A stretch of DNA of 64,000 nucleotides from the NCBI RefSeq assembly GCF_000377905.1, contig NZ_KB898875.1:124001-188000 (forward strand). The letters are read 5' to 3'. Source of the DNA: Thioalkalivibrio sp. ALMg11. GTDB lineage: Bacteria > Pseudomonadota > Gammaproteobacteria > Ectothiorhodospirales > Ectothiorhodospiraceae. The stretch's first letter is position 1. Each line of letters opens with the position of its first letter. Position numbers and translations under genes: made by a program. The notes under the pieces were generated by a model. That model searched no databases and was not told the origin of the DNA. It saw nothing but the letters and a program-made list of their open reading frames with translations. Below are positions 39,091 through 61,936 of the stretch, piece by piece.

Positions 39091-39994
39091 GGTTGCTTAC
39101 TATCCGGGTTGCGCGCTTGAGGGCTCCGGTGGGCCGTACGATCGCTCCACCCGCGTGCTGGTGAAGGCGCTGGGGCTCGAGATGGAAAACCTGCGCGACT
39201 GGAACTGCTGCGGCGCGATGGAGGTGAAGAACGTTCATCCCATGCTGCAGACCTACCTGTCCGCACGGAACATGGCGATCGCCTCCGAGCAGATGGGCAT
39301 GGACACTGTGATGGCGCCGTGCAACGGCTGCTATCACAACCTGAAGAAGGCCGAGTTCGAGACCGCCACGTCCGAAGACGCGATGAACACCGTCCAGGAT
39401 CTTGCGCGCCAGTCTGACGACCCGGTCTACAGCGGCGACGTTCGCACCCTGCACCTGCTCGAATGGCTGATGGAGGAACTCGGCCCGGAAGGCATCAAGC
39501 AGAAGATGACCAAGAGCCTGAACGGCATCAAGGTTGCGAACTACTACGGCTGCATGTACACCCGCCCGCGCCAGATCTTCCCGGAGAAGGACAACGGCCC
39601 GGGCTCGGACTCCAGCTATCAGCCGCACTTCATGGATGACCTGCTCGGTGCCGCCGGCGCCGTGAATGTCGAGTATCCGCTGAAGACCTCCTGCTGCGGT
39701 GGTGCGCACACGTTGTCCGATTCCGACACCTCGACCCAGCTGGTGCTGAACCTGCTGCAGTCGGCGGAGGACTCCGGTGCGGAAGTGATCGCCACCGAGT
39801 GCCCGACCTGCCACTCCGGTCTGGAGATGCACCAGGTTCGTGCCGAGACCGAGTTTGGCATCAAGACCGACGTGAAGGTGTTGTACTTCACCCAGCTGCT
39901 CGGGCTGGCCATGGGCCTGTCTGCGCGGAAACTGGGCATTCACGAGAACGTGAGTGACTCGATTGGCCTGTTGAAGGAGAAGGGGGTCATTTGA
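39083..39994 (+). CDS. shdrB2: sHdrB2, two-CCG-domain subunit of the sHdr complex
   Basis: HdrB-like catalytic subunit. The 303-residue protein shows two complete CCG motifs: 'YYPGCALEG', 'WNCCGAM', 'APCNGC' and then 'YYGCMYT', 'SCCGGAH', 'ECPTC'. Each can bind a non-cubane 4Fe-4S cluster. AAGGAGG sits before the ATG, inside sHdrC2. A strong terminator follows, separating it from the lbpA genes. Confidence 0.95.
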   Translation: MAKVAYYPGCALEGSGGPYDRSTRVLVKALGLEMENLRDWNCCGAMEVKNVHPMLQTYLSARNMAIASEQMGMDTVMAPCNGCYHNLKKAEFETATSEDAMNTVQDLARQSDDPVYSGDVRTLHLLEWLMEELGPEGIKQKMTKSLNGIKVANYYGCMYTRPRQIFPEKDNGPGSDSSYQPHFMDDLLGAAGAVNVEYPLKTSCCGGAHTLSDSDTSTQLVLNLLQSAEDSGAEVIATECPTCHSGLEMHQVRAETEFGIKTDVKVLYFTQLLGLAMGLSARKLGIHENVSDSIGLLKEKGVI

Positions 39995-40039: not shown

Positions 40040-40064
40040 CGGGCGCCTGGCGCCCGTTTTTTTG
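40040..40064 (+). terminator. Rho-independent terminator after sHdrB2
   Basis: GGGCGCC-TG-GCGCCC stem followed by seven T. It ends the sHdr operon. Confidence 0.85.
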
Positions 40065-40105
40065 TGGAGGCACGGGTCCCCGCGGTCCCGGGAATGAGGC
40101 GAAAC

Positions 40106-40552
40106 ATGGATTGCAACGGCTGCGAGTTTCACCCTGAACTGTTCTACGACGACGAATTCCAGATTTGGCTTCGCCGCGAGGATGACGACACCCTGACCGT
40201 GGGGATGACCGATCTGTCGCAGACGATTGCGGGCAAGATCATCCATGTGCGGGTGCGGCGGCCGGGTACGCGGCGACCGCCGGGCAAGCCGGTCGCCACG
40301 ATCGAAAGTGGAAAATGGGCGGGTCCGATCCCCAATTTCATCGATTGCAAGATCGTCGAGGGGAACGAGGAGGTGCTGGAGAACCCGGTGCTGCTGAATT
40401 CCGACCCCTACAATGCCTGGATCGCCCGAGTCGAGCCCACCAATGGGATCGAGGCCGCGCTGGAGGTGTTCCTGACCGGCGACAAGGCCGAGGAAGGCTA
40501 CTGCAAGCGGGCCAAGGACGATGACATTCAGTGCCAGCGCAAGCTGCGGTGA
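40106..40552 (+). CDS. lbpA: LbpA, lipoate-binding protein (upstream copy)
   Basis: GcvH-like protein whose lipoyl-lysine arm serves the sHdr complex in sulfur oxidation. The 148-residue product carries the lipoylation site ESGKW (K70) and an N-terminal Cys pair (CNGC). It keeps the GcvH core ('VGMTDLSQTIAGKIIHV'). ATG 40106 is preferred over 40064 and 40094 because GAGG lies at good spacing and the product then starts as MDCNGCEFH. It differs strongly from the second copy at 41005. No glycine-cleavage genes are nearby. Confidence 0.9.
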   Translation: MDCNGCEFHPELFYDDEFQIWLRREDDDTLTVGMTDLSQTIAGKIIHVRVRRPGTRRPPGKPVATIESGKWAGPIPNFIDCKIVEGNEEVLENPVLLNSDPYNAWIARVEPTNGIEAALEVFLTGDKAEEGYCKRAKDDDIQCQRKLR

Positions 40553-41004: not shown

Positions 41005-41442
41005 ATGGGTGCAGTTCGGGGTTGTGATATTCCTGAAGATCTGATGTACAACGTTGAAAACAACGTTTGGGTGCGCAAGGAAAGCGACGGTACCGCGACC
41101 GTCGGTCTGACGTCCTACGCCTGTTCGCTGGCGGGCACGATTGTGTCCTACACCCCGAAGAAGGTCGGCAAGGCGGTCAAGAAGGACAAGTCCTGCACCA
41201 CCGTCGAATCCGGCAAGTGGGTGGGTCCGGCGAAGACCCCGGTCACCGGTGAAGTCACCGAGACCAACGACAAGGTTGCGGGTAACCCGGGTCTGATCAA
41301 CGAAGATCCCTATGGCGAAGGCTGGCTGATCAAGCTGAAGCCGGAAGACTGGGATGGCGAAATCGGCGATCTGAAAACCGGTTCCGATGCCCATGCGGCC
41401 TTTGAAGCCAAGATGGAAGCGGACGGTTTCGGCGGCTGCTAA
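41005..41442 (+). CDS. lbpA: LbpA, lipoate-binding protein (downstream copy)
   Basis: Second GcvH-like protein with ESGKW (K71) as lipoylation site. The 145-residue product contains C7, C40, C64 and a C-terminal Cys ('GFGGC'). The strong CTGGAGGAAG site and a following terminator suggest high expression. Two differing LbpA copies flanking a DsrE3 gene recall the LbpA1/LbpA2 arrangement described for Thioalkalivibrio; which copy is LbpA1 I cannot say. Confidence 0.93.
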   Translation: MGAVRGCDIPEDLMYNVENNVWVRKESDGTATVGLTSYACSLAGTIVSYTPKKVGKAVKKDKSCTTVESGKWVGPAKTPVTGEVTETNDKVAGNPGLINEDPYGEGWLIKLKPEDWDGEIGDLKTGSDAHAAFEAKMEADGFGGC

Positions 41443-41547: not shown

Positions 41548-42729
41548 ATGACGAGCTGGAACGATGTAATCCAGCGGGTAGAGCCCCTCGAGGACGTCCC
41601 CGTCGATCCGTTGCTGGTTGATGACCTCCAGCATAGCCTGCAACACGCCGGGGATCCGGGTTCGGTGCACTTTTATACCCCGACCTTCAAGTCCTACCAA
41701 TCCAGCGAGCTGGCCGATTGTGGCAAGAGTGCTTGGCCTGCGATGTCCATTACCGGTGGCGATTGCAAGCTGGCCTGTGATCACTGCAAGGCCAAGATCC
41801 TGGATCCGATGATCCCCGTCCGCACCCCGGAGGATCTTTGGCGTCAGGTGAATGGCGTGATCGAGTCCGGTGCCCAGGGCATGCTCCTGACCGGTGGTTC
41901 GAATCATCGCAACGAGGTCGAATACGACCCGTATTACTCCACCATCCGGCGCATCAAGGACGAGTTCCCCGAATTCCGCATTGCCATGCATACCGCGCTG
42001 GTGGACGACGACATCGCGCTGTCCATGGAGCAGGCGGGAATCGACGCGGCGATGATGGACGTCATCGGTGCCCAGGACACCATCACGCAGGTCTATCACC
42101 TGCGTCGCAGCGTGGATGACTTCGAGCGCACGCTCGAGAGCCTGGTGAACACCAACATGAAGGTGGTCCCGCATATCGTCATCGGCCTGCACTACGGCAA
42201 GCTGCTGGGCGAGTGGAATGCGCTCGAGATGCTGGCGCGCCACCTGCCGGATGCCGTGGTGCTGGTGGTTGTCATGCCGTTCTACGCGCCGGCCAGTCGC
42301 CCGTTCGAGACCCCGGACGTGCATGCGGTGGGCCGCTTCTTCCACGACGCCCGCGCTCGCCTGGCTGATACCTCGCTGCTGCTGGGCTGCGCCCGTCCGC
42401 CGGGCGAGGCCAAGAGCCAGATCGACAGCTACGCCGTGATGGCGGGCCTGTCCGGGATTGCCCACCCGGCAGAAGGGGTGGTGGAACTCGCCGCTCGCCT
42501 GGGCAAGAAGGTGCGCGTGACTCCGGCCTGTTGCTCGATCGCTGTCGGTGACGAGGTGATGGCCGAAGACGCCGGCGCCGCCAGCGGCGTCGAACTGGAC
42601 CTGGACACCATCGTGGCCGAGGAAGCCCGCCGTCGCGAGCAGGAGCGCAAGGCGCGCCAGGGCCTGGGCGGCATCCGCATCGTCACCGAGGGGGGCGAGA
42701 TTGCAGCCGGGGGTGGCTGTCATGCCTGA
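41548..42729 (+). CDS. lipS1: LipS1, radical SAM lipoate synthase subunit
   Basis: Radical SAM protein that, with LipS2, inserts two sulfur atoms into octanoyl-LbpA. The 393-residue product has the SAM-cluster motif C73xxxC77xxC80 ('GDCKLACDHCKAK') and 'MLLTGGSNHR'. Further cysteines near the C-terminus ('TPACCSIA', 'GGGCHA') could bind a second cluster. It begins the lipS1-sLplA-lipT-lipS2 group; its stop overlaps the ligase start by 8 bases. It does not resemble LipA. Confidence 0.9.
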   Translation: MTSWNDVIQRVEPLEDVPVDPLLVDDLQHSLQHAGDPGSVHFYTPTFKSYQSSELADCGKSAWPAMSITGGDCKLACDHCKAKILDPMIPVRTPEDLWRQVNGVIESGAQGMLLTGGSNHRNEVEYDPYYSTIRRIKDEFPEFRIAMHTALVDDDIALSMEQAGIDAAMMDVIGAQDTITQVYHLRRSVDDFERTLESLVNTNMKVVPHIVIGLHYGKLLGEWNALEMLARHLPDAVVLVVVMPFYAPASRPFETPDVHAVGRFFHDARARLADTSLLLGCARPPGEAKSQIDSYAVMAGLSGIAHPAEGVVELAARLGKKVRVTPACCSIAVGDEVMAEDAGAASGVELDLDTIVAEEARRREQERKARQGLGGIRIVTEGGEIAAGGGCHA

Positions 42730-43816: not shown

Positions 43817-43839
43817 GCCACGTTCGGGGTCTTTGCTAA
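43813..43839 (+). CDS. Eight-codon mini-ORF linking sLpl and lipT
   Basis: ATG 43813 overlaps the sLpl stop (ATGA) and its own TAA overlaps the lipT start (TAATG). It encodes MSHVRGLC. lipT has no good ribosome site, so this reading may carry ribosomes from sLpl to lipT. Whether it is translated is unknown. Confidence 0.35.
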   Translation: MSHVRGLC

Positions 43840-44921
43840 TGCTGCCCGCCGCGGTGGATGTGCTGGTTGTCGGTCTGGGCCCGGGCGGGGCCTCGGCCGC
43901 GCGCGTGTGTGCCGAGGCCGGATTGTCGGTGCTCGCGGTCGAGCGTAACAAGGCCTTCGGCGAGCCGGTGCAGTGCGCCGAGTTCATCCCCAACCCGATG
44001 GGCGCCTACGCGCAGCCCGACGGCGTGTTGCTGCAGCGGATCGATTCCATGCAGAGTTTCCTGCCCTCCGGGGCGGTGGAACATTCCGACTTTCCCGGCC
44101 TGATGGTGGATCGCGGCGAGTTCGACCGCGCCATCATCCGCGCCGCCGAGGCGAACGGGGCGCAACTGGTGACCTCGACTCCGCTGGTGGCGGTGGACGC
44201 CGAGCGTCACATCGCCCGGGTGAAACACGCCGGTGCAGAACACGAAGTCGGCTACCGCGTGCTGATCGCGGCCGATGGGCCGCATTCGCCGGTCGCCGAG
44301 GCCCTGGGCCTGCCGGCCCTGCCGACGGTGCAGACCCGCCAGTACACCGTGCCGCTGAACAAGCCCTACACCGCCACCGATGTCTGGCTGTCCGATGACT
44401 ACCCCGGCGGCTACGCCTGGCTGTTCCCCAAGGGCAAGTGGGCCAATCTCGGTCTGGGCGCCGACAAGCGCATCGCCGGCGACCTGAAGACCCCGCTGGA
44501 GTCCCTGCATGCCCAGCTTGTGGAGCAGGGCCTGCTCGGGGAAGAAATCCGCTACCGGACCGGCGGGGCGATCCCGGTCGGCGGCCTGCGTGATTCGCTG
44601 GTAACCGGCGACGTGCTGTTCGTCGGCGACGCGGGTGGCCTGACGCACCCGATTACCGGGGCCGGCATTGCCGCTGCGGTGGTTTCGGGCGAGGCTGCCG
44701 GCGAGGCTGCGATCGGCCACCTGGAAGGCGACGCCGAGGCCCTTGCCGACTATGACGAGGACATGCGCGACCAGTACGGGCCGGCGCTGGATCGCGCCTG
44801 CGAGCGGCGCGCCTTCCTCAATGAACACTGGCGAACCCCGCGGGCGCAGGAAGATGCCACCCAGCGCCGCGGATGGATTGCATTTTCCGAGTATTTCAAC
44901 GATGGTGACCGGGCCGCGTAA
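43839..44921 (+). CDS. lipT: LipT, FAD-dependent oxidoreductase of lipoate assembly
   Basis: Geranylgeranyl-reductase-like flavoprotein that probably supplies electrons to LipS1/LipS2. The 360-residue product has the FAD motif 'VVGLGPGGASAARV', the 'VQCAEFIPNP' region after the first Rossmann unit, and the second motif 'FVGDAGGLTHPITGAGI'. No strong Shine-Dalgarno; the start overlaps the mini-ORF stop. It sits between the ligase and LipS2 genes, which matches the described LipT position. Confidence 0.88.
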   Translation: MLPAAVDVLVVGLGPGGASAARVCAEAGLSVLAVERNKAFGEPVQCAEFIPNPMGAYAQPDGVLLQRIDSMQSFLPSGAVEHSDFPGLMVDRGEFDRAIIRAAEANGAQLVTSTPLVAVDAERHIARVKHAGAEHEVGYRVLIAADGPHSPVAEALGLPALPTVQTRQYTVPLNKPYTATDVWLSDDYPGGYAWLFPKGKWANLGLGADKRIAGDLKTPLESLHAQLVEQGLLGEEIRYRTGGAIPVGGLRDSLVTGDVLFVGDAGGLTHPITGAGIAAAVVSGEAAGEAAIGHLEGDAEALADYDEDMRDQYGPALDRACERRAFLNEHWRTPRAQEDATQRRGWIAFSEYFNDGDRAA

Positions 44922-44975: not shown

Positions 44976-46148
44976 ATGAGTGCAAGTGCAGAGGAGATGG
45001 TCGCGCCGATCAACTTTTACCGGCCCGACTATCACATCAAGACCCCGGACATGCGTTCGCCGGAGTACGTGCAGATGTCCACCGCGGCCGCGATCACGCT
45101 GGGCCTGGTGCCGGGCACCATGCATCGCACGTCCTGCACGCACTGCCTGAACCTCCTGGTCACGTACCCGGAAGGCTGTCGTGCCAACTGCTCCTACTGC
45201 GGCCTGGCCCGCCACCGCGAGGAATCGCGGGATTACGCCGACCGCAACTTCATCCGCGTCGACTGGCCGACCGCCAAGTACGACGAGGTGATCGAGCGCG
45301 TGAAGAAGCACGCCGACGCCGGCCAGTTCGAGCGCATGTGCATCTCCATGATCACCCACCCGAACTCCGACGCCGACACCGTCGAGCTGCTGGAGCGCTG
45401 GGTCGCCGAGGTCAACCATATCCCGGTGTCGATCCTGTCCAACCCGACCACCATGAGCTACGAGGATCTGCAGCTCCTGCGGGACAAGGGCGCGGACATC
45501 TTCACCGTCGCGCTGGACGCGGTGACCCCCGAGATCTTCGAGCGCACCCGCGGCAAGGCGGTCGAGAGCCCGCATAGCTGGGACAAGTACTGGCAGTCCA
45601 TCGAGTGGGCCGCCGAGATCTTCGGCCCGGAGAAGTTTGGCGCGCACCTGATCTGCGGCATGGGCGAGACCGAGGAAGAGATCCTGCAGGTCTGCCAGCG
45701 CATCCGCGACCTGGGCGGTCACAACCACATGTTCGCCTTCTTCCCGGAAGAGGGCTCGCTGATGGAAGACTGGAACCCGGTCCCGCGTGACCAGTGGCGT
45801 CGCGTGCAGCTGGGCCGCTTCGTGATCGACTACGCCGGTGGCCGCATCGACGACATGCAGTTCAACGCCGACGGCCAGGTGGTGGACTTCGGTCTGCCGC
45901 AGGCCGAGGTGGAAGAACTGATCGCCTCCGGCAAGCCGTTCCAGACCTCCGGCTGCCCCGGCAAGTCGGACGAGGAGGTCTCGGCCTGTAACCGCCCGTA
46001 TGGCGACTCCAGCCCGACGGACATCCTGTCCTTCCCGTTTGCGCTCAACTCGACCGACGTCGGGTTCGTCCAGCGGCAAATGGCCGGGGAGGATGTCGGC
46101 ACCTTCGACTTCGACGCCGACGAGGCGGACGACGAGAAGACGGCCTGA
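44976..46148 (+). CDS. lipS2: LipS2, radical SAM lipoate synthase subunit
   Basis: Partner of LipS1 in lipoate formation. The 390-residue protein has the radical SAM motif C68xxxC72xxC75 ('CRANCSYCGLARH'), 'SCTHC' upstream (C54, C57), and C-terminal 'SGCPGKSDEEVSACNRPYG', possible ligands of a sacrificial cluster. The C-terminus is acidic. GGAGGA precedes the ATG. A terminator follows, closing the lipoate-assembly operon. Confidence 0.92.
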   Translation: MSASAEEMVAPINFYRPDYHIKTPDMRSPEYVQMSTAAAITLGLVPGTMHRTSCTHCLNLLVTYPEGCRANCSYCGLARHREESRDYADRNFIRVDWPTAKYDEVIERVKKHADAGQFERMCISMITHPNSDADTVELLERWVAEVNHIPVSILSNPTTMSYEDLQLLRDKGADIFTVALDAVTPEIFERTRGKAVESPHSWDKYWQSIEWAAEIFGPEKFGAHLICGMGETEEEILQVCQRIRDLGGHNHMFAFFPEEGSLMEDWNPVPRDQWRRVQLGRFVIDYAGGRIDDMQFNADGQVVDFGLPQAEVEELIASGKPFQTSGCPGKSDEEVSACNRPYGDSSPTDILSFPFALNSTDVGFVQRQMAGEDVGTFDFDADEADDEKTA

Positions 46149-46426: not shown

Positions 46427-47698
46427 ATGGAAGCACGCATCATTCGCCGCAGCCTGGTGACGATCGCGGTCGGCCTGGCCATGGGCTCCGCCGGCGTCGC
46501 GCACGCCACCAACGGCTACTTCGCCCACGGCTACGGCACCAAGGCCAAGGGCATGGGGGGCGTCGGCATGGCGATCTCCCAGGATGCCTACGCCCCGGGC
46601 ATCAACCCCGCCGGCATCGCCGGCATGGAAAGCCGCATCGACGGCTCCCTCGCCTACTTCCGTCCCGAACGTTCCGTGACGTTTAACGATATGGGCGATA
46701 TGACGATCGATTCCGACAGTGAAGACTTCTTCATCCCGTCGATTGGGTATGTCCAGCAGATCGACGAGAATCGATCCTGGGGTATTGCACTGCTGGGGAA
46801 CGGGGGGCTGAATACGGATTACCCTGCCTTTGATCGTCAATGCCAGAATCCGCAGGATCCGAACGGGCCACTGGTTCCGGGACAAGGCGTGTTCTGCGGT
46901 GGTTCGGCGGGGGTTGATCTTGAGCAACTCGCGATCATTCCGACCTACGCCCAGAAGTTCGCAGATGGTCGCGTTAGCGTGGGTTTTAGCCCGATCATCA
47001 GTTACCAACGTTTTAGTGCAAAGGGAATCGAGGCATTCAATCAGGCCAGCGCCGAAGGAGATACGGGAAGTGGTAGCGGTACCGATACCACGTGGGGCTA
47101 TGGCGCGCAGATCGGCTTTCAGGCCGAGTTGGCTGAAGGTGCCCGGGTCGGGGCCAGCTATCGCTCCAAGATCCGCAACGGGGACTTCGATGACTACAGC
47201 GGTCTCTTTGCCGATGGCGGGAGCTTTGATGTCCCGTCCACCTACGGTTTGGGTTTCTCGGTGGACGTAAGCCCGAGCGTCACTCTTTCCGCCGATTACC
47301 AGCGCATCAATTACACGGATGTCGCTGCGATCTCGAACCCAGGCGACTCTGGGCTTCTGGGGGCGCCGAACGGTGCCGGCTTTGGCTGGCAAGATATCGA
47401 TATCTTCAAGTTTGGCGCTCAGTATGAAGCCGGAAATGACTGGACCTGGCGAGTGGGCTACAACCGGGGGGAAAACCCGATTCCGTCTAGCGAAGTGGAA
47501 TTCAACATCCTGGCCCCGGCCGTGATGGAAGATCACTTCACCTTTGGGTTCACCAAGGGCTTTGGCAATCAGCATGAGCTGAATTTTGCGGCAATGTACG
47601 CGCCGCGGCAGAGCGTTCGTGGACCTACCCAGCAAGGTGAAGCGACCATCGAGATGCGTCAGTACGAGCTCGAGATCGGGTACGCGTACCGGTTCTGA
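46427..47698 (+). CDS. FadL/TodX-family outer-membrane protein
   Basis: Beta-barrel porin for hydrophobic compounds. The 423-residue product has a signal peptide ending 'GVAHATNG', and the mature start 'TNGYFAHGYGTKAKGMGGVG' is a typical FadL hatch region, followed by beta-rich repeats ending in an aromatic C-terminus (GYAYRF). AAAGGAG precedes the ATG. It lies right after the lipoate operon; a role in moving sulfur compounds or lipids across the outer membrane is only a guess. Confidence 0.9.
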   Translation: MEARIIRRSLVTIAVGLAMGSAGVAHATNGYFAHGYGTKAKGMGGVGMAISQDAYAPGINPAGIAGMESRIDGSLAYFRPERSVTFNDMGDMTIDSDSEDFFIPSIGYVQQIDENRSWGIALLGNGGLNTDYPAFDRQCQNPQDPNGPLVPGQGVFCGGSAGVDLEQLAIIPTYAQKFADGRVSVGFSPIISYQRFSAKGIEAFNQASAEGDTGSGSGTDTTWGYGAQIGFQAELAEGARVGASYRSKIRNGDFDDYSGLFADGGSFDVPSTYGLGFSVDVSPSVTLSADYQRINYTDVAAISNPGDSGLLGAPNGAGFGWQDIDIFKFGAQYEAGNDWTWRVGYNRGENPIPSSEVEFNILAPAVMEDHFTFGFTKGFGNQHELNFAAMYAPRQSVRGPTQQGEATIEMRQYELEIGYAYRF

Positions 47699-47738: not shown

Positions 47739-47903
47739 GGTGTTATGCGCCCGGGAGGGGCGCCCGGCCTTGAGGGGAAGGCCGGATCCGCCAGGGAGGG
47801 CGGGTGACCCCGAGGTTCGTGACGCACTGGGGGGTGCGTTCCGGGCCCTTCTTCCTGTCGAGCGTTCCGCTCGAACTTATTTTTGAATACAAAGGAGGAT
47901 GCC

Positions 47904-48860
47904 ATGCGAGCAATCCACGCCTTGCGCGGGAGCGTCCGCGCGGTCGGTATGGTCGCGGCGGTTGCGCTGTTCGCGGCGAGCCAGACCGTGGCGGCCGATA
48001 CCTATCGTCCGTTGGTACTGGCCTACACGGAATCGGGGACCGATGTCTCTGCCGAAGTTGCCAGTGTGCGGGAGCGCCTGGAAGGGGCCGATTTCCGGTT
48101 CCTGGGCGAGTATCCGGTCAGCGATGATCGGCACGTGATCGTGGTCACCCACGATGATCTGCTGTCTGTGGCCGGTTCCGAGGAGCGGGGTGGCTATATC
48201 GCCCCGATCCGCGTGGCCGTAACCGCGGTCGATGGCGAGCTGCAGGTGAGCTACAACAACCTGGAGTACTTCCGCCACGCCTATCGCCTGGACGCTTCGG
48301 TGTCCGATGTGAGCGAGCGGCTGTCCGGTACCCTGGGGGCGGAACGCGAGTTCGGTTCCGAGGACGGGATGAGCGCGCGCGACCTCAACCGCTATCGCTA
48401 TACCTTCGGGATGGAACGCTTCGATGCCCCGTACGAGCTGGCCAGCCATGGCTCCACGCGTGCGGCGCTGAGCGAACTGGACGGCAATCTTGCGTCGCGG
48501 GTGGCGGGGGTCAGCGAGATCTATCGCGTCGACATCCCGGGCCAGGACGTGACGGTGATCGGCGTGGCCGTGCGTGAGGCGGACGGGGCCGATCAGGACT
48601 CTGCTGACCTGCATCAACTCGGGATCGTGGATGTGGGCGAGTTCCGCCATACCGCGACGGTTCCGCTCGAGATCATGGTTCGAGGGGGCGAGGTGGAGGC
48701 GCTGAACATGCGTTTCCGCAAGGCGCTGCATTTCCCGGATCTGCGGATGCTGGGGGACAACAGCTTCATGCGTCTGCGCAGCTCGCCCGGCGCGCTGGAA
48801 GAGACCCTGAAGGCGGTCGCCGGCTTTGAAGAAGAGGAAGACAGCGGGTTCTCGTGGTAA
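47904..48860 (+). CDS. Exported unknown protein, 318 residues
   Basis: I do not recognise this family. The product from ATG 47904 (after AAAGGAGG) has a signal peptide ending near 'SQTVAADT' and then two similar-looking alpha/beta halves, with no cysteines in the mature part and an acidic tail. It may be periplasmic. The gene stands alone between a hairpin and a strong terminator, next to the sulfur-oxidation cluster. Nothing in it indicates a substrate. Confidence 0.75.
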   Translation: MRAIHALRGSVRAVGMVAAVALFAASQTVAADTYRPLVLAYTESGTDVSAEVASVRERLEGADFRFLGEYPVSDDRHVIVVTHDDLLSVAGSEERGGYIAPIRVAVTAVDGELQVSYNNLEYFRHAYRLDASVSDVSERLSGTLGAEREFGSEDGMSARDLNRYRYTFGMERFDAPYELASHGSTRAALSELDGNLASRVAGVSEIYRVDIPGQDVTVIGVAVREADGADQDSADLHQLGIVDVGEFRHTATVPLEIMVRGGEVEALNMRFRKALHFPDLRMLGDNSFMRLRSSPGALEETLKAVAGFEEEEDSGFSW

Positions 48861-48930
48861 TTCCACGGTAATCTGCACGCGCCACGGAAGGGCGCAAGGG
48901 GTGGCGGAATTCCCGTGTGCCCCACTCAAG

Positions 48931-48956
48931 AACCCCGGTCTGCCGGGGTTTTTTTA
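48931..48956 (+). terminator. Terminator after the exported unknown gene
   Basis: AACCCCGG-tctg-CCGGGGTT followed by TTTTT. Confidence 0.85.
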
Positions 48957-49014: not shown

Positions 49015-49443
49015 ATGAAATCGATGAAGATCGCCAATATTGGCGAGATCCGCAACGAACTCAACAAGTACAAGAAGGGCAAGAAGCTCGATATCCATCA
49101 GTTCAACCAGGTCGCGCGCCTGGCCTGGCTCGGCAAGATCGTGATGCAGCCGCTGGATCTGGAGGATGCCGAGTGCAAGTCCTTCCTGGTGTACATCCAG
49201 GAGCCGGAAGAGCTGGCCGCGCACTTCCTCGACACCGACCAGGAGCTGTCCGGCGGCATCCATATCATCGACGGCGAGCAGGCCATGGCCATGGTCGAGA
49301 TCATGCGCAGTGGGGTCGAGGAACGCGCCAAGCTGTACGGGGATCTCTCGCGCAGTGACTTCTATTTCCGCTACTTCTATCAGCCCGGCCAGGACGACAA
49401 GACGGACGATCCGGCTGCTGGCCAGGACAAGACCGAGGGCTGA
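49015..49443 (+). CDS. Unknown 142-residue cytoplasmic protein, module with second ligase
   Basis: I do not recognise it. The product starts MKSMKIANIGEIRNELNKYK, is helical and charged, has one cysteine (C54-like in 'DAECKSFL'), and ends in an acidic tail. AGGA lies nine bases before ATG 49015; ATG 49024 is an alternative. The stop is three bases before the lipoate-ligase-like gene, so the two are coupled. A role as partner or substrate adaptor of that ligase is inference. Confidence 0.75.
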   Translation: MKSMKIANIGEIRNELNKYKKGKKLDIHQFNQVARLAWLGKIVMQPLDLEDAECKSFLVYIQEPEELAAHFLDTDQELSGGIHIIDGEQAMAMVEIMRSGVEERAKLYGDLSRSDFYFRYFYQPGQDDKTDDPAAGQDKTEG

Positions 49444-49446
49444 CAC

Positions 49447-50490
49447 TTGGTCGCATCGACGGTGACCCCGGAGTGGATCGACGCCGGGGCTCGCTCCGCC
49501 GAGGAACTCCACGCGCTGTACGCCGGGCTGGCGAGCATGACCTCGCCGGACGCACCCCCGCGCGTGCTCTGGACGCATGCCCGCGAGCCACATATCTCGG
49601 TCGGCGCCAGCCAGGACGCTGCTTCCGATCTGGACCTTGCTGCCTGTGCGGAGCAGGGCGTCCCGGTGGTGCGGCGACCGCTGGGTGGTGGCTCGGTCTG
49701 GGTGGATGCCGATCAGGCCTGCTTCTTCCTGATCCAGCCGCGCCATGTCCTCGCTCGGGGGCATCGCCACTTGTTCGCCATGGGCCTGGGCATCGCGATG
49801 GATGTACTGCGTGAGCTTGGGCTGGAGGGCGTAGAGGCGCGGGGTCAGGATGTCTGGGTCCAGGGGCGCAAGATCATGGGGACCGGCGCGGCCACGCTCG
49901 ACGAGGGCTGCGTGTTCGGGGCCAGCTTCCTGCGGCACTTCCCGGTCGAGCGTTTTCTCGCCTGTGTCCACGCCCCTAGCGAGGGCTACCGCGACTGGCT
50001 GCGTCCGGCGTTGGAGACGGGCATGACCGACTGCGCCCGCCAGTGCCCGCAAACCCCCGAGCCCGCGCAGGTCGAGGCCGCCCTGCGCGCGGTCCTGGAA
50101 CGCCGTTTTGGCGTGCCGGTGCGGATGATCGAGCCGGACCGAGACACGATCGAACAGTGGTTGGCGGCCGGGCACGAGGAGCTCGAGGACCTGGCCGATG
50201 GCCAGGGTTCCCCGGCCGTGCGCGACGGGATCCGGGTGAACCGCGATAACCACGTGTTCGAGACCCACGGGGCCTGTGGGCGCCTGCGCCTGCACGTGGA
50301 GGGCTCGCACATCGCACGGGTCTGGTGCGAGGACCCGGCGACCACCGCGATCCTCGAGGAACACCTGATTGGCGAGTCCCCGGAGCGCCTGCGCGTGCGC
50401 TCGCGCCTGAGCGGTCAGCTCGACGCCCGCATGGTCGACGAGATCAGTGCCCGCATCGACGGGCTCTATCGCGGAATTGCGGCGGCCTGA
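49447..50490 (+). CDS. Second lipoate/octanoate protein-ligase-like enzyme
   Basis: BPL/LplA-family transferase, 347 residues. It keeps the ligase motif RRPLGGGS (76-83) and the catalytic-lysine region 'QDVWVQGRKIMGTGA' (K142), with a C-terminal domain of about 90 residues. It differs clearly from sLpl at 42722. The start is TTG 49447 or GTG 49462. It could serve the second LbpA, GcvH or the 2-oxoacid dehydrogenases. The short gap to the preceding gene indicates one operon. Confidence 0.82.
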   Translation: MVASTVTPEWIDAGARSAEELHALYAGLASMTSPDAPPRVLWTHAREPHISVGASQDAASDLDLAACAEQGVPVVRRPLGGGSVWVDADQACFFLIQPRHVLARGHRHLFAMGLGIAMDVLRELGLEGVEARGQDVWVQGRKIMGTGAATLDEGCVFGASFLRHFPVERFLACVHAPSEGYRDWLRPALETGMTDCARQCPQTPEPAQVEAALRAVLERRFGVPVRMIEPDRDTIEQWLAAGHEELEDLADGQGSPAVRDGIRVNRDNHVFETHGACGRLRLHVEGSHIARVWCEDPATTAILEEHLIGESPERLRVRSRLSGQLDARMVDEISARIDGLYRGIAAA

Positions 50491-50529
50491 CCCGCCCCTT
50501 CCGCTACCCACGAACGCCGGAGATGCCGT

Positions 50530-50913
50530 ATGTCCGAACCGACGATCGAACGCCGCCTGGAGAAGCGCGTCATCCTGATGACGCAGGACGCCGGGTTGAC
50601 CGAGCGCATGCAGGCCCAGCTGCCGCAGGACTGGCAGTTGCACCGGGTGACCGACCTGGATGAACTGGGCCCCTGGAATGAGATCCTACTGTACCGCTTC
50701 CTGCTGCTGGATCTGGACGAGATCGAGGCCTTCGACCCGCTGGACGTGATCCGGATGCTGCGCATGGAATACCAGATCAATCTTCCGGTATTCTGCTTCG
50801 GCGGCGATCAGGACATCCAGGACGAGATGCGCCTGGCCCGCGCCGATCGTTTCTTCGGGCGCGAAGAAATGATCGACAAGCTTCCCGAGTTTATTCGCCA
50901 GTACGACTGGTAA
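50530..50913 (+). CDS. Unknown 127-residue protein with receiver-like pattern
   Basis: The sequence has alternating strands and helices reminiscent of a response-regulator receiver ('RVILMTQDAGLTERM', 'YRFLLLDLDEIEAFDPLDVIRML', 'LPVFCFGG'), but the acidic pocket and the phosphoacceptor context are not clearly kept. I do not assign a function. GGAG precedes the ATG. It follows the ligase-like gene by 40 bases and may complete a three-gene module. Confidence 0.7.
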   Translation: MSEPTIERRLEKRVILMTQDAGLTERMQAQLPQDWQLHRVTDLDELGPWNEILLYRFLLLDLDEIEAFDPLDVIRMLRMEYQINLPVFCFGGDQDIQDEMRLARADRFFGREEMIDKLPEFIRQYDW

Positions 50914-54683: not shown

Positions 54684-55544
54684 ATGAAGAACCTGATCAA
54701 CCGCATCCGCGGTGTGGAACGCGACGTCATCGACAAACCGGGGGACGCAGGCGACGCCCCGTTCTACAAGCCCCAGCGCGACGAGATCGAGATCTTCAAG
54801 GCGGCCTATTCGAAGCGCCTGCCGGTGATGCTCAAGGGGCCGACTGGTTGCGGCAAGACCCGCTTCCTGGAACACATCGCCCACGTCCTGGGCCAGCCGC
54901 TGGTGACCGTGTCCTGCCACGAGGACCTGACCAGCTCCGACCTGGTGGGTCGCTTCCTGCTGGAGGGCGAGGAAACCGTCTGGCAGGACGGCCCGTTGAC
55001 GCGCTCGGTCAAGGAGGGTGCGATCTGCTACCTCGACGAGATCGTCGAGGCGCGCACCGACACCACGGTGGTGATCCATCCGCTGACTGACCACCGCCGC
55101 CAGCTCCCGCTGGACAAGAAGTCGCAGATCATCGACGCGCACGAAGACTTCATGCTGGTGATCTCCTACAACCCGGGTTACCAGACCGTACTGAAGGACC
55201 TGAAGCCCTCCACCAAGCAGCGCTTCGTCGGCATCCACTTCGACTACCCGGAGGAGGACGTCGAACGCGAGATCGTCGCCAAGGAATCCGGTGGCCTGGA
55301 CGCCGACCGTGTGGAGAAGCTGGTGGCTGCCGGGCGCAAGGCGCGTGCGTTGAAGGACCACGGCCTGGAAGAGGCCACCTCCACCCGCGCGCTGGCCTAC
55401 GCCGGCGAACTGATGCAGGCCGGGTTGACCCCGCGCGTGGCCTGCCGCGCCGCGATGATCGCGCCCATCACCGATGACCCCGAGCTGATCCAGGCGCTGG
55501 AAGAGATCTTCGACGCCCACTTCCCCGAGTCCGAAGCCGCGTGA
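54684..55544 (+). CDS. cbbQ: CbbQ/NirQ/NorQ-type MoxR AAA+ ATPase
   Basis: AAA+ chaperone that remodels a target enzyme together with a VWA partner. The 286-residue protein has Walker A GPTGCGKT (52-59), Walker B '[11 protein letters not shown]', and sensor 'VISYNPGY'. CbbQ activates Rubisco; NirQ/NorQ serve nitric oxide reductase. Rubisco genes are absent here, so the client is open. Its stop overlaps the next gene by 4 bases. Confidence 0.88.
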
Positions 55545-58096
55545 GCGACCCCGCGACCCAAGGCGGCGCGAAACCGGAGGCGGAAGAACTCGTCGAGATC
55601 GAGGAGATCCTCCAGCACCTGGAGGACATCAGCTTCGTCGCGCACCGCGATACGAAGGAGGCCCTGCCGGCGATCCGCCCGTTCGGGGCCACCATCGCGC
55701 GGCGCTGGATCGAGACCGCGCGCGATCTGTTCTTCCATGACCGCGAGGCCGGCAAGAGCTTCATGCGCCACTCGGCGCGGCTCGCCGAGAACATGCAGAC
55801 GGTGGCGCTGTGGCTGGAGCAGGCCGCGCGCTTTCAGGAGTGGGTGAACTCCAACTATGCGCTGGAAGGCTTCATGGCCCAGGCCGACCGGGTACACGCG
55901 GAATGGGGCGAGGAGGGCGAGCGCGAGTGGGCCGAGATCGGCCTGCGCTGGTGCGCGCGCAGCCTGCCGGACGCCCGGGCCTACTTCGAGGCCCCGTTCG
56001 AGAAGCTTGCCGCCGAGCGCGGCATCGAGGGCCTGCGCGCCCTGATCGAGCCGGCCGAAAAGCTGTTCGACGAGCGCGGCCTGACGCTGGATGCCTACCT
56101 CGAGGGCGCCCCGATTGCCCGCAATCTGGTCGGCGACGCGGGGCTGCTCTCCTGGGCGCGGCGCGGGGCGGACCTGCTGAAGGCCGGGCGCTCGCGTGGC
56201 GAGGCCTATTTCCGCCTGGAGAGCGACGAGAGCCTGAAGCTCCTGCTGGAGGCGCTACCGGGCTTCCGCCCACGTATGAACGGGCGCTTTCTGCGCCTGG
56301 TGCTGATGGCCTGGCTGGACGCCGACATCCCGCTGGCGGATTCCAGCTGGAAGCCGGGCGAGGGCCGTCCGATGCTCGAGACCGATGGGCGCCGCCTGTT
56401 CATGCCGGCGGTGATGGACTCGCGCGAGGAGGCGATCGTCGCTACCCAGCACGCGGCCGCGCATCTCGCCTTCGATACCTACGCGCAATCCGACGTCGAG
56501 CGCCTGTTCGAGCGTGCAGGCGCCGAGCACCCGCCGCTGGACGACAAGTCGCGCATCACCTGGCGTCCGTTGTTCGCTCAATTCGACGCGCGCATGTTCA
56601 GCTTCCAGGTCCTGTTCGACCTGGCCGAGGACCTGCGCGTGAACGCGCGCCTGGCCCCGCGCATCCCGAATTTCCTGTCGCGCCTGGTCGAACTCGCCCG
56701 GGCCCACGAGCGCCCGGAGGGTGCGGCCGGAATCTACTACGACTTCGCCCTGCGCGCCCACGAGGCCCTGCTGCGCGGCGAGGCCCAGGACCCGCGCCTG
56801 GCGCGGATGCTGGAGCCGGACGCGGACATCGTCACCGCCTGGGCGGTGGGTGAGGATCTGTTCGCCGACGACGCGTTTCCCGAGATCACCATCGATGAGC
56901 GCGCCGAGGCCTACCTGCCGGGGCTGTCGCTGAACCAGTCGCTGCCGGTCTACCCGCAACGCAAGCGCGATGGCAGCCTGGCCGACTTCCGCGACCACGA
57001 GGCGCACGACGAGCACAAGCTCGAGCACCAGAAACAGGAAGAACAGCCCCAGCAGGCCCCGGAACAGGCGCAGAAGGACCCGGACGCGGATATCCAGACG
57101 CCGCAGCAGGAGACCTCCGGCACCGGCGGGCGTATCGGCACCGGTATCCCGCAGCCGGCCCAGGTGGCCAAGCGCGGCGTACCCTATACGCCGCGGAAAG
57201 ATGGCATCCCGTATCCCGAGTGGGACTACCGCGAACAGCGCTACATCTCCGACTGGGTGAACCTCTACGAGCGCGTGCTGGACGACGAGAACCCGGAGCT
57301 GGCGGCGACGATTCTCTCCGAGAACGCCGCCACCCTGAAGCGCCTGACCCGTGGCCTGGAGATGCAGCGCCCGATGCGCCTGGCGCCGCAGCGCAAACAG
57401 CTGGACGGTGACGAGCTGGATACCGAGGCGGTGATCGACTACATCGCGGACAAGAAGGCGGGGCTCTCGCCCAAGGCCTTCATCTACCGTCGCCGCGCGG
57501 TGCAGCACCGCGACACCTCGGTGCTGATGCTGGCGGACATGTCCACCTCCATCATGGCGCGCCACCCGAGCGGGCAGGGCAAGATCGTCGACCGCATACG
57601 CGAGGGGATGATGCTGTTCGCCGAGGCCATCGAAAAGGTCGGTGATCCCTATGCGCTTGCCGGCTTTGCCTCCAAGCAGCGCGACCAGGTCAACTACTAC
57701 TGGCTGAAGGATTTCAACGAGGATCTCAACGACACCGTGCGCGCCCGCATTGCCGGGGTGTCCGGGCGCCTGGCCTCGCGTATGGGCGCGGGCATTCGCC
57801 ACTCGCTGGAGGCGTTCAAGCGCAACTCCAGCCAGCGCCGCCTGCTGCTGATCCTCACCGACGGGCGCCCGGCCGACTACGACGACGGTGGTGACCAGCG
57901 TTATCTGCACGAGGACACGCGCATGGCCATGAAGGAGGCGGTGGACGCCGGCGTCCACCCCTTCTGCATCACCCTGGACCCGTCCGGTTCCGAGTACCTG
58001 CCGGCCATCTTCGGCCCGGGGCACTACACCATCATCGACCACGTGGACGAGCTGCCGCGCCGTCTGCCCGAGATCTACCTGAGGCTGCGCCAGTGA
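55541..58096 (+). CDS. cbbO: CbbO-type VWA-domain protein
   Basis: Adaptor partner of the CbbQ ATPase. The 851-residue protein has a long helical N-terminal region, a Glu/Gln/Pro-rich linker (about residues 490-545), and a C-terminal VWA domain with MIDAS 'DMSTSI' (DxSxS) and '[14 protein letters not shown]'. Length fits CbbO (about 770-870). GTG or ATG 55541 overlaps cbbQ (GTGA type); its stop TGA overlaps the GTG start of the deacetylase-family gene. Confidence 0.88.
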
Positions 58097-59301
58097 ATGC
58101 CACCCCCGAAGCTATCGACCCGGCGGTGGCCGCCGCGCCGGGTCCGGCCCGCCGCCATGCGACCCTGCTGCATGCGCCGCGCTATCGCGGGCACAGCTAT
58201 GGCGACAACCACCCGCTGGGCATCCCGCGCGTCTCTCTGACCCTGGACCTGATCGAGGCCTATGACGCGATCACCCCCGGGGAGATGGCCGTTACGCGCA
58301 AGGCGCAGCCGGCCGAGCTCGAGTGGTTCCACACCCGCGAGTACGTCTCCGCCATGCAGCGGGCCGAGGCCCTGGGCAAGGTCTTCCAGCGCTACCGCGA
58401 CCGCCACAACATCGGCAATTTCGAAAACCCGTTCTTCGCCGGCTTCTTCGCCACCCCGGCCACCGCGACCTTTGCCTCCATCCAGGGCGCCGAGGTCGTT
58501 CTGGGCGGGCAGATGGCCTTCAATCCGGCCGGTGGCATGCACCACGCGGCCCCGGACCAGGCGCGAGGATTTTGCTACTTCAACGACCCGGCGCTCGCGA
58601 TTCTGCGCCTGCGCCAGGCCGGTCAGCGTGTGCTCTATCTCGACATCGACGCCCACCACGGCGACGGCGTCGAGGCCGCATTCACCGACGATCCGGACGT
58701 CCTCACCGTCTCCCTGCACATGGACACCGAATACGGCTATCCCTTCCAGGGCGGGCGCATCGAGGATACGGGCCCGCTCGGCAATGCGGTGAATGTGCCG
58801 CTGCCGAAGGAGACCAACGACAGCGAATTCCGCGCCGCCTTCACCCGGGTGTGGGACGCGGTGCGTGATCGCTGGCAGCCGGACGTGATCGTCGTCCAGG
58901 CGGGCACCGATGCCCTGCTGCCGGATCCGCTGGGCAAGTTCGGCATCTCTACCCAGTGCTTCCTCGCCTGCATCGACGATGTGATCGAGACCAGCCCGCG
59001 CCATGAAGACGGCACGCCGAAGCTGCTGGTCCTCGGGGGTGGCGGCTATCACCCCCTCGCGCTCGCCCGCTGCTGGACCGGCGTCTGGGCCCTGCTCACC
59101 GGACGCGACCTGCCCGCCGAGATCCCCGCTGCCGGCCAGGCCTTGCTGCGCGAGGTCGACTGGGACATGGACGAGGAAGAGGACTGGTACGAGAACCTGT
59201 TCGTCTCCCGTCTCGACGCCGACCGTTCCGGCCCCGTGCGTCCCGAGCTCGAGGAACGCCTGGGGCGGCTTTTCCATGCACACCCGTTGTTGCGCGGTTA
59301 G
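58093..59301 (+). CDS. Histone-deacetylase-family hydrolase (AcuC/APAH-like)
   Basis: Zinc-dependent amidohydrolase of the arginase-deacetylase fold, removing acyl groups from acetyl-lysine or acetylpolyamines. The 402-residue protein keeps 'GGMHHAAPDQARGFCYFND', 'DIDAHHGDGVEAAF' (metal Asp/His), 'SLHMD', 'QAGTDALLPDPLG' (metal Asp) and 'LGGGGYHP' (Gly-Tyr). GTG 58093 overlaps the cbbO stop by 4 bases, so it is translated with the CbbQO chaperone; this pairing is unusual. Confidence 0.9.
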   Translation: MNATPEAIDPAVAAAPGPARRHATLLHAPRYRGHSYGDNHPLGIPRVSLTLDLIEAYDAITPGEMAVTRKAQPAELEWFHTREYVSAMQRAEALGKVFQRYRDRHNIGNFENPFFAGFFATPATATFASIQGAEVVLGGQMAFNPAGGMHHAAPDQARGFCYFNDPALAILRLRQAGQRVLYLDIDAHHGDGVEAAFTDDPDVLTVSLHMDTEYGYPFQGGRIEDTGPLGNAVNVPLPKETNDSEFRAAFTRVWDAVRDRWQPDVIVVQAGTDALLPDPLGKFGISTQCFLACIDDVIETSPRHEDGTPKLLVLGGGGYHPLALARCWTGVWALLTGRDLPAEIPAAGQALLREVDWDMDEEEDWYENLFVSRLDADRSGPVRPELEERLGRLFHAHPLLRG

Positions 59302-59424
59302 TGGAGAGGCGCTGATCAATCACCGGCCCGTGGCTGCGGGCATAGAAGATAGGAGATGCCGAGCCCGTGGGCTGTCGGGGTCCCGCCTGGATTATGGCTC
59401 CGTGCCTGCTGGGGCGCCGGTCGC

Positions 59425-59486
59425 GTGTAAAGCATTCCGACGGGGTTCGGCCCGATGTTCGGAAGAAGCGTCGGAATTTTTTACAC
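59425..59486 (+). promoter_or_regulatory. Upstream palindrome of the PEP-CTERM gene
   Basis: Two 18-base arms, GTGTAAAGCATTCCGACG (59425-59442) and CGTCGGAATTTTTTACAC (59469-59486), are inverted with two mismatches. They lie about 80-120 bases upstream of a sigma-54 promoter, the usual place for an enhancer-binding protein. TGTAA...CCGAC-type motifs are known upstream of PEP-CTERM genes. Confidence 0.65.
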
Positions 59487-59548
59487 GGCTTACTTTATGG
59501 TGAATCGGGTCTGGGAGAAACTCCTGTAAAACCATCCCATTGCGAATT

Positions 59549-59564
59549 TGGCGCGCGTCTTGCT
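59549..59564 (+). promoter_or_regulatory. Sigma-54 (RpoN) promoter
   Basis: TGGCGCGCGTCTTGCT has the -24 GG and -12 GC exactly 10 bases apart, fitting TGGCACG-N4-TTGCW. It lies about 70 bases upstream of the PEP-CTERM start. Confidence 0.7.
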
Positions 59565-59632
59565 TCGTAATTGCTCGAGAGGGCGAAAGGCGCCCTGAGC
59601 GGCCAACAGGCCGGGAGCCAGAGGTGAGTGTG

Positions 59633-60526
59633 ATGCGCAAGTTTTGGAGTAAGCAGGTGGCAGTACTGGCGGGCGTGATGCTTGCGGGCTCGGTGGCGAA
59701 CGCGGCCATCATCGAACTTCCGGACATCGACGCGACCTATGACGGGATCCCCGTCGCCATTCAGTACAACGATTTCTATTCCTACTCCGGCTCGTTGTTG
59801 AACCAGTGGGGCTTCCTGTCTCAGGCCAACTACACCGGGCAGGGCACGGGCACGCTGGATCTGATTGTGGGCACGGGTGCTGGTGGCGCGGATAACCAGG
59901 GTGTCGGGCCCGACGGCAGCTACAATTTCGAGAACCCCATGCCCTTCCCGGGTGGCAGCGTGACCACTTTCACCGGCGACTGGGGGCTGGGCACCCAGGC
60001 CAACGGGCCCGTGCTGGTGGACAACCTCCTGGCGTACCTGGATGCGATCAACCCGGGGGCCACCATCCCCACGTTCATCTTCGACCACAACCAGACAGGG
60101 GGATCCCCCGATCTGCTGGTCCAGGCCGAGGTCTTCATCTACGACCCCGTCACCGGGGAGCGCGTAGCCCGCTGGATCTTTGACGACGGCAACGGCGGCC
60201 CGGTTCTCTCGCCCGGCGAGATCCAAGTGGTCGGCGATTCGGGAGAGGTGTACGAGACCGATGCCAACAAGGGAAGCGGCAAACTGGACTACATCGCCTT
60301 TGCCCCGACCATGGATCTCGGCCTGTTCGCCGGCGAGGGCTATCTGTTCGGGATCGATTTCTTCATGGATGACCTGAACAATGGCTTCGAGGAGCTCTAT
60401 CTCAGCGGGCGGTTCACCACCACCGCCACTGAGGTCCCGCTGCCGGGGCCGGCCTGGTTGATCGGGCTTGGCCTCGTGATGCTGGGTGCCTTCCGCCGCT
60501 ATCGGCATTCGGCCCCGGGCCTGTAG
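59633..60526 (+). CDS. PEP-CTERM-type exported protein
   Basis: Secreted protein with a C-terminal sorting signal: 'VPLPGPAWLIGLGLVMLGA' then basic FRRYRHS, the form read and cut by an exosortase. The 297-residue product has an N-terminal signal peptide ending 'GSVANAAIIE', a Gly/Asp/Asn-rich beta-type body and no cysteines. The start is ATG 59633, or the in-frame GTG three codons earlier. No exosortase or exopolysaccharide genes are in the window; they must lie elsewhere. A sigma-54 promoter and a palindrome precede it. Confidence 0.85.
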   Translation: MRKFWSKQVAVLAGVMLAGSVANAAIIELPDIDATYDGIPVAIQYNDFYSYSGSLLNQWGFLSQANYTGQGTGTLDLIVGTGAGGADNQGVGPDGSYNFENPMPFPGGSVTTFTGDWGLGTQANGPVLVDNLLAYLDAINPGATIPTFIFDHNQTGGSPDLLVQAEVFIYDPVTGERVARWIFDDGNGGPVLSPGEIQVVGDSGEVYETDANKGSGKLDYIAFAPTMDLGLFAGEGYLFGIDFFMDDLNNGFEELYLSGRFTTTATEVPLPGPAWLIGLGLVMLGAFRRYRHSAPGL

Positions 60527-60579
60527 TCTCCGCTCATTTCCCCTGCCGCCCCCCACTTCCGGCCGGGGCGGCCTCTGCC

Positions 60580-60607
60580 CCGCGCCCCGGCACATGCCGG
60601 GGCGCGG
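60580..60607 (+). terminator. Terminator hairpin after the PEP-CTERM gene
   Basis: CCGCGCCCCGGC-acat-GCCGGGGCGCGG, a 12-bp GC-rich stem followed by CTGTTTGT. Confidence 0.6.
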
Positions 60608-60769
60608 CTGTTTGTGCGGCCGTCCGAGGCCACCGGTAGTTGCCCGCTCGCGTTGCGGGTTTTCGCAAATCCCGTCCGCTGACGTACGATTCCCCCCTCA
60701 CCGGGTGGGTGGGGGTTCGGGGCTTCCCGGAGCCCGCCCCCAGGGACCCGCGACCAATCGAGGAGACGC

Positions 60770-61936
60770 ATGGAGCCCGTGCAGAAACTGATACCCGGCT
60801 ATGCCAATGCCAAGGCGACGCGCCGTTACGCGGAGCAGTTCGTGTCCGAGGGCAAGGCCGTTGAGGGACATTACAGCGAGTTCTCGCGCGCGAAGATGCG
60901 CCTGTCGAGCCTCGGCATCGGCACCTTCGGCGGGGCGGCCACCACCGAGGTGGATGCGCAGATCTCCGCGATCGTCGCGCGCGGCCTGGCCGAGGGCGTC
61001 AACGTGATCGACACCGGGGCGCATTACCGCTACGGCCGTTCGCTGGCGGCGGTGGGGGCGGGGGTGCGCACCGCGCTGGAGGCCGGGGTCCCGCGCGAGG
61101 CGATGTTCCTGATCTCCAAGGGCGGGTTCCTGACCCTGCGCGGCGGGCCGCCGGAGGACATGGAGGCCTGGTTCCAGCGCGAGATCGAGGCCCAGGGCAT
61201 GGGTACGAAGGACGATCTGGCGAAGGGCGCGCATCTGCTGACGCCGGAGTACCTCCACTACCAGATGGAGCTGTCGCGCTCGCTGATGGGAGTGGAGACG
61301 CTGGATGCGTTCCTGATCGACCAGCCCGAGGTGCACATCCACGAGATCGGCAAGGAGCCGACTAACCGCAAGCTGGAGCCGGTATTCGAGATGCTGGAGC
61401 GGGCGGTGCGCGACAAGAAGATCCGCACCTACGGCATCTCCACCTTCGAGGGCTTCCGCGAGGAGACCGACGCGGCGGTGTTCCAGTCGCTCACCTCCAT
61501 GCAGGGACTGGCCGAGCGCGCGGCACAGACGGTGAGCGGAGACGACCATGCGCGGCATCACTTCAAGATCGCCATGCTCCCGTTCAACCAGGTGATGCTG
61601 GAAGGCTTTACCCGCTTCAACACCGCGACCGGGCAGGGCAACGTGGCCAGCCCGCTGCAGGCCGCGCACCAGCTGGAGGTGTACATGATCGCCTCGCACT
61701 CCATGCTGAAGGGGCACCTGGCGAAGCAGTCGGTGGAGGTGGTCGAGCAGCAATTGGCGAGCCTGCCCAACCCGGCGCAGCGCGCGTTGCAGTTCAACCG
61801 CTCCACGCCGGGGCTGGGCACCTCGCTGGTCGGCATGAGCACGCCGGCGCACCTGGACGACATGCTGGCGGTGATGCGCGAGCCGATGATCGACAAAAAG
61901 GCCTATCTCGGCATGTTCAAGAAGGCGGAGGAGTAG
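60770..61936 (+). CDS. Aldo/keto reductase family protein
   Basis: TIM-barrel oxidoreductase, probably NADPH-linked. The 388-residue product has 'LSSLGIGTFGGA', the catalytic Asp/Tyr region 'VIDTGAHYRYG', a lysine in 'LISKGGF', and 'IRTYGISTFEGF', so most of the Asp-Tyr-Lys-His set is there; the His equivalent is in 'DQPEVH'. It is longer than typical reductases and has insertions around 'PEDMEAWFQREIEAQG'. The substrate is unknown. AGGAG precedes the ATG. Confidence 0.85.
   Translation: MEPVQKLIPGYANAKATRRYAEQFVSEGKAVEGHYSEFSRAKMRLSSLGIGTFGGAATTEVDAQISAIVARGLAEGVNVIDTGAHYRYGRSLAAVGAGVRTALEAGVPREAMFLISKGGFLTLRGGPPEDMEAWFQREIEAQGMGTKDDLAKGAHLLTPEYLHYQMELSRSLMGVETLDAFLIDQPEVHIHEIGKEPTNRKLEPVFEMLERAVRDKKIRTYGISTFEGFREETDAAVFQSLTSMQGLAERAAQTVSGDDHARHHFKIAMLPFNQVMLEGFTRFNTATGQGNVASPLQAAHQLEVYMIASHSMLKGHLAKQSVEVVEQQLASLPNPAQRALQFNRSTPGLGTSLVGMSTPAHLDDMLAVMREPMIDKKAYLGMFKKAEE

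Follow-up and report, generated by a model that had tools for sequence, protein, structure and literature searches.

Sulfane sulfur oxidation by sHdr and lipoate-binding carrier proteins is still understood only in part. In a window of 64,000 nucleotides from Thioalkalivibrio sp. ALMg11 (contig NZ_KB898875.1), three tightly spaced genes, one of them coding for an enzyme similar to the lipoate ligase LplA, lie downstream of an sHdr-lipoate cluster that already has a ligase of its own. The locus raises the question of whether this trio is simply a spare lipoate ligase with two small companions or belongs to the sHdr machinery itself. The analysis presented here favors the second answer, namely that the three genes probably code for working parts of the sHdr machinery without prior description.

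Genomic context of the trio

The cluster in the source genome has the order tusA ... sHdr ... lbpA1-dsrE-lbpA2-lipS1-sLpl-lipT-lipS2, and all features of the window for which coordinates are given below lie on the forward strand. sHdrB2 (positions 39083-39994), which we chose as the marker for the sHdr system, is followed in conserved synteny by lbpA1 (40064-40552), lbpA2 (41005-41442), whose product is a lipoate-binding protein and likely acceptor, lipS1 (41548-42729), lipT (43833-44921) and lipS2 (44976-46148). The order lipS1-sLpl-lipT-lipS2 is also the one given in PMC10332631. The sLpl(AB) of the source genome (42701-43816) is of the characterized LbpA ligase type, with an LplA catalytic domain (PF21948, 169 bits) and an LplB domain (NF053749, E-value 3.4e-13).

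Two further genes stand between lipS2 and the trio in the source genome. They code for a FadL/Toluene_X-type outer-membrane protein (46427-47698; PF03349, E-value 1e-15) and for a secreted-looking protein of 325 amino acids with a weak match to DUF302 (47883-48860), the latter being the upstream neighbor of the trio in both Thioalkalivibrio and Acidihalobacter. According to PMC10332631, sHdr-lipoate clusters have the accessory genes lipX, coding for a glutamine amidotransferase, and lipY, coding for a putative fatty acid transporter, and the FadL-type gene is probably this lipY. The trio resembles lipX and lipY in being accessory to the same kind of cluster, but it codes for neither a glutamine amidotransferase nor a fatty acid transporter, and its genes were not found described in the passages of that paper that were consulted. 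FadL-type genes are also seen at the equivalent position in the betaproteobacterial loci L140, L146 and L152, as well as in L127.

The trio begins about 3 kb 3' of lipS2 and comprises c142 (49015-49443), coding for a protein of 142 amino acids from a family without prior description, the gene of the LplA-like enzyme, here called lig (49447-50490; 347 amino acids, TTG start), and rec (50530-50913; 127 amino acids). The preliminary description of this DNA had delineated the three open reading frames as closely spaced and codirectional, and our reading of the frames confirms this, with gaps of 3 bases between c142 and lig and of 39 bases between lig and rec. Homologues of all three share their start, order and spacing across dozens of genomes, and the dN/dS ratios of the trio genes are low (approximately 0.05-0.35); we therefore take c142, lig and rec to be real genes. 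Among the 47 genomes of the order, 35 have c142 and 36 have rec, and the starts and order of these genes are conserved.

Just 5' of c142 is a strong hairpin with a T run (48928-48955; fold of -17.1 kcal/mol, z -4.5), which is missing from the output of a simple sequence scan. Judged by its sequence, it is probably an intrinsic terminator, and this would probably make the trio a separate transcription unit in the source genome. The promoter scan yielded no match above chance and Rfam yielded no match. A survey of the genes 3' of rec across loci found mostly shadow ORFs and no additional universal partner. Farther 3' of rec, we note genes for a 286-amino-acid ATPase-like protein, for proteins of 851 and 402 amino acids and for a 388-amino-acid 'LIPGYANAKATRRYAEQF' protein, which are seen repeatedly in the vicinity of rec in genomes of the Tv. 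sulfidiphilus and Ectothiorhodospira types (window 54684-61936; L227:812-5801; L225:2321-3616).

Sequence and structure of the small proteins

Searches with c142 against Pfam and NCBIfam found no significant match. Its AlphaFold2 model has a confident core (pLDDT 85), and a Foldseek search against the PDB found no fold match for it (best E-value 0.17). Assignment to a known fold by way of weak profile matches to cyanobacterial PDB entries (Glr2806, Glr1262 and CpcN) was set aside, as these lacked a single significant stretch.

The profile of the rec family finds receivers in the PDB (3lte, E-value 1.6e-5), and the AlphaFold model of rec (pLDDT 93) matches the same structure in Foldseek (E-value 2.2e-5, TM-score 0.69); the earlier characterization of this 127-residue protein as receiver-like was thus right. 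Like the receivers of response regulators such as 3lte and CtrA, rec has the receiver fold and an aspartate, Asp61, that is invariant in an alignment of 33 members and aligned with the phospho-acceptor Asp of 3lte. Unlike them, it stands alone and does not retain the rest of a phosphorylation site, since the Thr/Ser is replaced by Gly (G91), the Lys is missing and the acidic pair is incomplete. By sequence and model, rec is a pseudo-receiver. Cys89, in the motif FCFGG, is likewise invariant in the 33 members; given the tie of this pseudo-receiver to sulfur oxidation, the residue could have a role in sulfur binding or redox sensing. The model also matches a mycobacterial complex I subunit chain (8e9g_O) in Foldseek, which provides a precedent for a receiver-fold subunit in a respiratory complex.

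The LplA-like enzyme forms a separate clade

The source genome carries four LplA-B_cat proteins, viz., sLpl, lig, LipB and a ligase encoded beside a TonB receptor, and not the two ligases counted in the preliminary description. The PF21948 score of lig (82.1 bits against a cut-off of 27) places it among proteins with the LplA catalytic domain. The RRxxGGGS and KxxGTGA motifs ascribed to it earlier are present (as RRPLGGGS and KIMGTGA), with invariance across the family limited to the second Arg, GGG and Lys; in an alignment of 15 diverse members, R77, G80-82, D135, K142 and G145 are invariant. Both lig (55 bits) and sLpl (173 bits) fall below the TIGR00545 equivalog cut-off of 280 bits.

With sLpl(AB), which is of the TK90_0642 type, lig shares the LplA catalytic fold, the R-GGG loop, the catalytic Lys and the genomic neighborhood, but the two are only about 26-28% identical. 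sLpl(AB) has an LplB domain and the RND and R-x-RV-x-NL motifs, whereas lig has none of these: the Asn of RND and the R-x-RV-x-N adenylate-loop motif of known ligases are lost, and trio members match neither PF10437 nor NF053749 in searches for the LplB domain, in which sLpl and the TonB-linked ligase do give matches. In a phylogenetic tree, the trio enzymes (14 rows) and sLpl (9 rows) form separate groups with support of 100/99, by which an origin of lig as a recent sLpl duplicate is rejected; the trio enzymes also stand apart from the TonB-linked ligase. The latter (C7:25851-26930) is the nearest paralogue of lig in the source genome, being about 30% identical and similar in the sequence following the catalytic Lys, but it has an LplB domain (PF10437, E-value 6e-6), lig having no recognizable one, and its relatives extend to genomes that have neither sHdr nor the trio. 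When the lig profile is scored across the class, every one of the top matches (at least 274 bits) is located in or at the c142-rec gap. TonB-linked relatives come next, at about 230-264 bits and including some from genomes without sHdr, and sLpl scores far lower. One trio member (G135) scores within the TonB-linked range. At C7:23656-26930 (L223:7656-10930), the gene of the complete LplA-LplB-type ligase comes 45 bases after that of the TonB-dependent receptor, and the two are possibly a lipoate/octanoate scavenging pair.

The acyl transferases LipB, LipM and LipL use a catalytic Cys. Like them, lig is a single LplA-like domain without LplB, but the alignment of its family contains no invariant or near-invariant Cys; lig is accordingly rejected as an octanoyltransferase, and the LipB/LipM-like octanoyl-transfer step once suggested for it is unlikely. 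A housekeeping LipB/LplA identity is rejected as well, since LipB and the TonB-linked ligase are encoded separately in the source genome, and lig is neither LipB nor of the housekeeping type. Thus, in the absence of LplB, the RND Asn, the adenylate-loop motif and a conserved Cys, lig fits neither the classical Lpl(AB) pattern nor that of the LipB/LipM-type transferases.

The likely target of the enzyme

The catalytic motifs of LplA in lig are what would be expected of an ordinary second lipoate-protein ligase that divides the labor with sLpl by serving LbpA2 (or LbpA1), and the preliminary description had proposed just such a ligase for the other LbpA copy. This proposal is weakened by the sLpl orthologue of Thioalkalivibrio K90mix, for which lipoylation of LbpA1 as well as of LbpA2 was shown in vitro (PMC6067878), and the missing LplB domain and altered adenylate loop and RND of lig also argue against an ordinary ligase, which we regard as unlikely. 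Further, lipS1-sLpl-lipT-lipS2 suffice for LbpA modification in E. coli (PMC10332631), so that the trio would be dispensable for basic lipoylation there. What does speak for the ordinary second ligase is the link to LbpA2. Genome G014, a single contig, is without sHdrB2, sLpl, LipS2, c142 and rec, and keeps together tusA, LbpA2 (81% identical), the DUF302 protein and the trio ligase (L222:3463-9934), which points to LbpA2 as the partner of lig. Both lig and lbpA2 are intact in G014, with pairwise dN/dS of 0.17 and 0.07, respectively, against L121, values in which selection before and after the loss is inseparable. From these sequences we infer that lig acts on LbpA2. The G014 segment looks like an sHdr cluster relic with an orphan LbpA2, and the genome appears to resemble that of Tv. 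paradoxus ARh1, which was reported to be without hdr (PMC6382920).

A catalytically lost lig could also serve as a sensor of lipoyl or lipoyl-AMP that works with rec and c142 to regulate or inspect the lipoylation of LbpA. The losses of the LplB domain, the Asn of RND and the Arg motif of the adenylate loop would suit such a role, as would the pairing with a pseudo-receiver that has neither the Thr/Ser nor the Lys of receivers. However, R77, GGG, D135 and Lys142 are invariant in beta- and gammaproteobacteria, and a dead enzyme need not keep them; we consider a sensor improbable.

Distribution of c142 and rec

The c142 profile, run over 84,980 species genomes, finds 54 loci in Thioalkalivibrio, Ectothiorhodospira, Acidihalobacter, Competibacteraceae and betaproteobacterial MAGs. 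Where contigs are sufficiently long, c142 mostly lies 3' of lipS2 in an sHdr-lbpA-lipS1-sLpl-lipT-lipS2 cluster, with rec downstream of it and lig between them or not; the trio is found immediately 3' of lipS2 in beta- and gammaproteobacteria. Within the class, c142 and rec are present in an identical set of 21 of 369 genomes. Scoring sHdr by sHdrB2 alone (at least 64% identity; 22 of the 369 positive), we find the pair in 20 of the 22 sHdr-positive genomes and in one of the 347 without detected sHdr, a 75%-complete MAG (Fisher p approximately 1e-29, uncorrected for relatedness). Co-occurrence with sHdr and lbpA, which the preliminary description had put forward as a check, is thus strongly positive for c142, for rec and for the trio arrangement, and equal frequency of the trio in genomes without sHdr is not what is seen. 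The pair co-occurs with sHdr across 17 genera, Alphaproteobacteria, Aquificota and archaea being outside the in-depth comparison, and is absent in a few sHdr genomes (G005, G006, G046 and G212).

Outside the class, G412 has c142 in an unrelated place (43% identity to the closest relative in the set of loci) and sHdrB2 (69%) elsewhere in the genome, unlinked to c142, so that the connection to sHdr rests on more than synteny. G007 has sHdrB2, c142 and rec, with no match for LipS2 and sLpl, whereas G003, G042 and G045 have LipS2 and sLpl and are devoid of sHdrB2, c142 and rec. These exceptions indicate that the pair tracks sHdr and rule out lipoate assembly as what it follows. In L121 (G015), lbpA2 and the trio are together, and the sLpl and lipS2 genes are on a separate contig. 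As regards lipoylation, that of LbpA in G007 (L094, L179, L194) must run another way, perhaps through a TonB-type ligase at C1:341970, and in G003, G042 and G045 (L235, L230, L229), which belong to the family of the source, LipS2 and sLpl without sHdrB2 would be a relic or have another lipoyl acceptor.

Of the 21 class genomes, 17 carry lig between c142 and rec and the other four have no lig; the enzyme is also missing in Ectothiorhodospira, where the pair persists. The c142 and rec genes overlap stop-to-start in several species, and stop-start overlaps occur also in some trio loci with lig between the two. An sHdr-linked accessory module made up of a constant c142-rec pair and an optional, separately derived and distinct lig is therefore well supported. 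The small proteins may still be adaptors, as was proposed earlier, but not simply those of the ligase, since the pair lives without lig in Ectothiorhodospira and others.

That the pair is found without lig, and also without sLpl and LipS2, would suit an arrangement with c142 and rec as parts of the sHdr complex, either assembly factor or bound subunit, and with lig as an unrelated LbpA-maturation gene in a shared operon; the likeness of rec to the complex I chain supplies a respiratory precedent. We hold this to be quite unlikely, given the exact placement of lig between c142 and rec in those 17 genomes and the stop-start overlaps in some of them. Hitch-hiking of a trio unrelated to sHdr that became its neighbor through chance, which would accord with the hairpin parting it from the upstream genes in the source, is very improbable in view of the co-occurrence in 17 genera and the unlinked case outside the class.

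A hypothesis for the function of the module

The explanation that we favor, and consider somewhat probable, is that c142, rec and lig constitute an accessory module of sHdr-LbpA sulfur oxidation. In this module, c142 and rec would be adaptor or regulatory subunits on the sHdr complex or on LbpA, with rec perhaps providing a non-phosphorylated receiver fold for protein binding. The R-GGG loop and Lys of lig would form the usual pocket for an activated lipoyl or octanoyl group, and the target of the enzyme would be LbpA, most likely LbpA2. Because sLpl and LipS1/S2 already cover primary assembly, the role of lig may rather be lipoylation salvage, repair or tuning, and without LplB it would either adenylate unaided or rely on a partner protein. 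The absence of lig in Ectothiorhodospira and others and its changed RND and adenylate-loop motifs are points against the proposal, as are the modification of LbpA in E. coli without the trio and the few sHdr genomes that lack the pair. More tentatively, and rather less likely than not, c142 and rec might be nearly obligate, unrecognized sHdr components. lig would then be a new functional class of the LplA fold, devoid of LplB and of the acyl-Cys, and would process the lipoyl group on LbpA together with c142 or rec.

The trio had been introduced as lacking any known description, and we likewise found none in the main text, as distinct from the supplementary tables, of the open-access literature. 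The c142 and rec families, which follow sHdr across genera even apart from lipoate assembly, are direct candidates for subunits, adaptors or regulators still absent from the picture of this system, and lig tests whether the lipoate-ligase fold works when it lacks both LplB and the catalytic cysteine.
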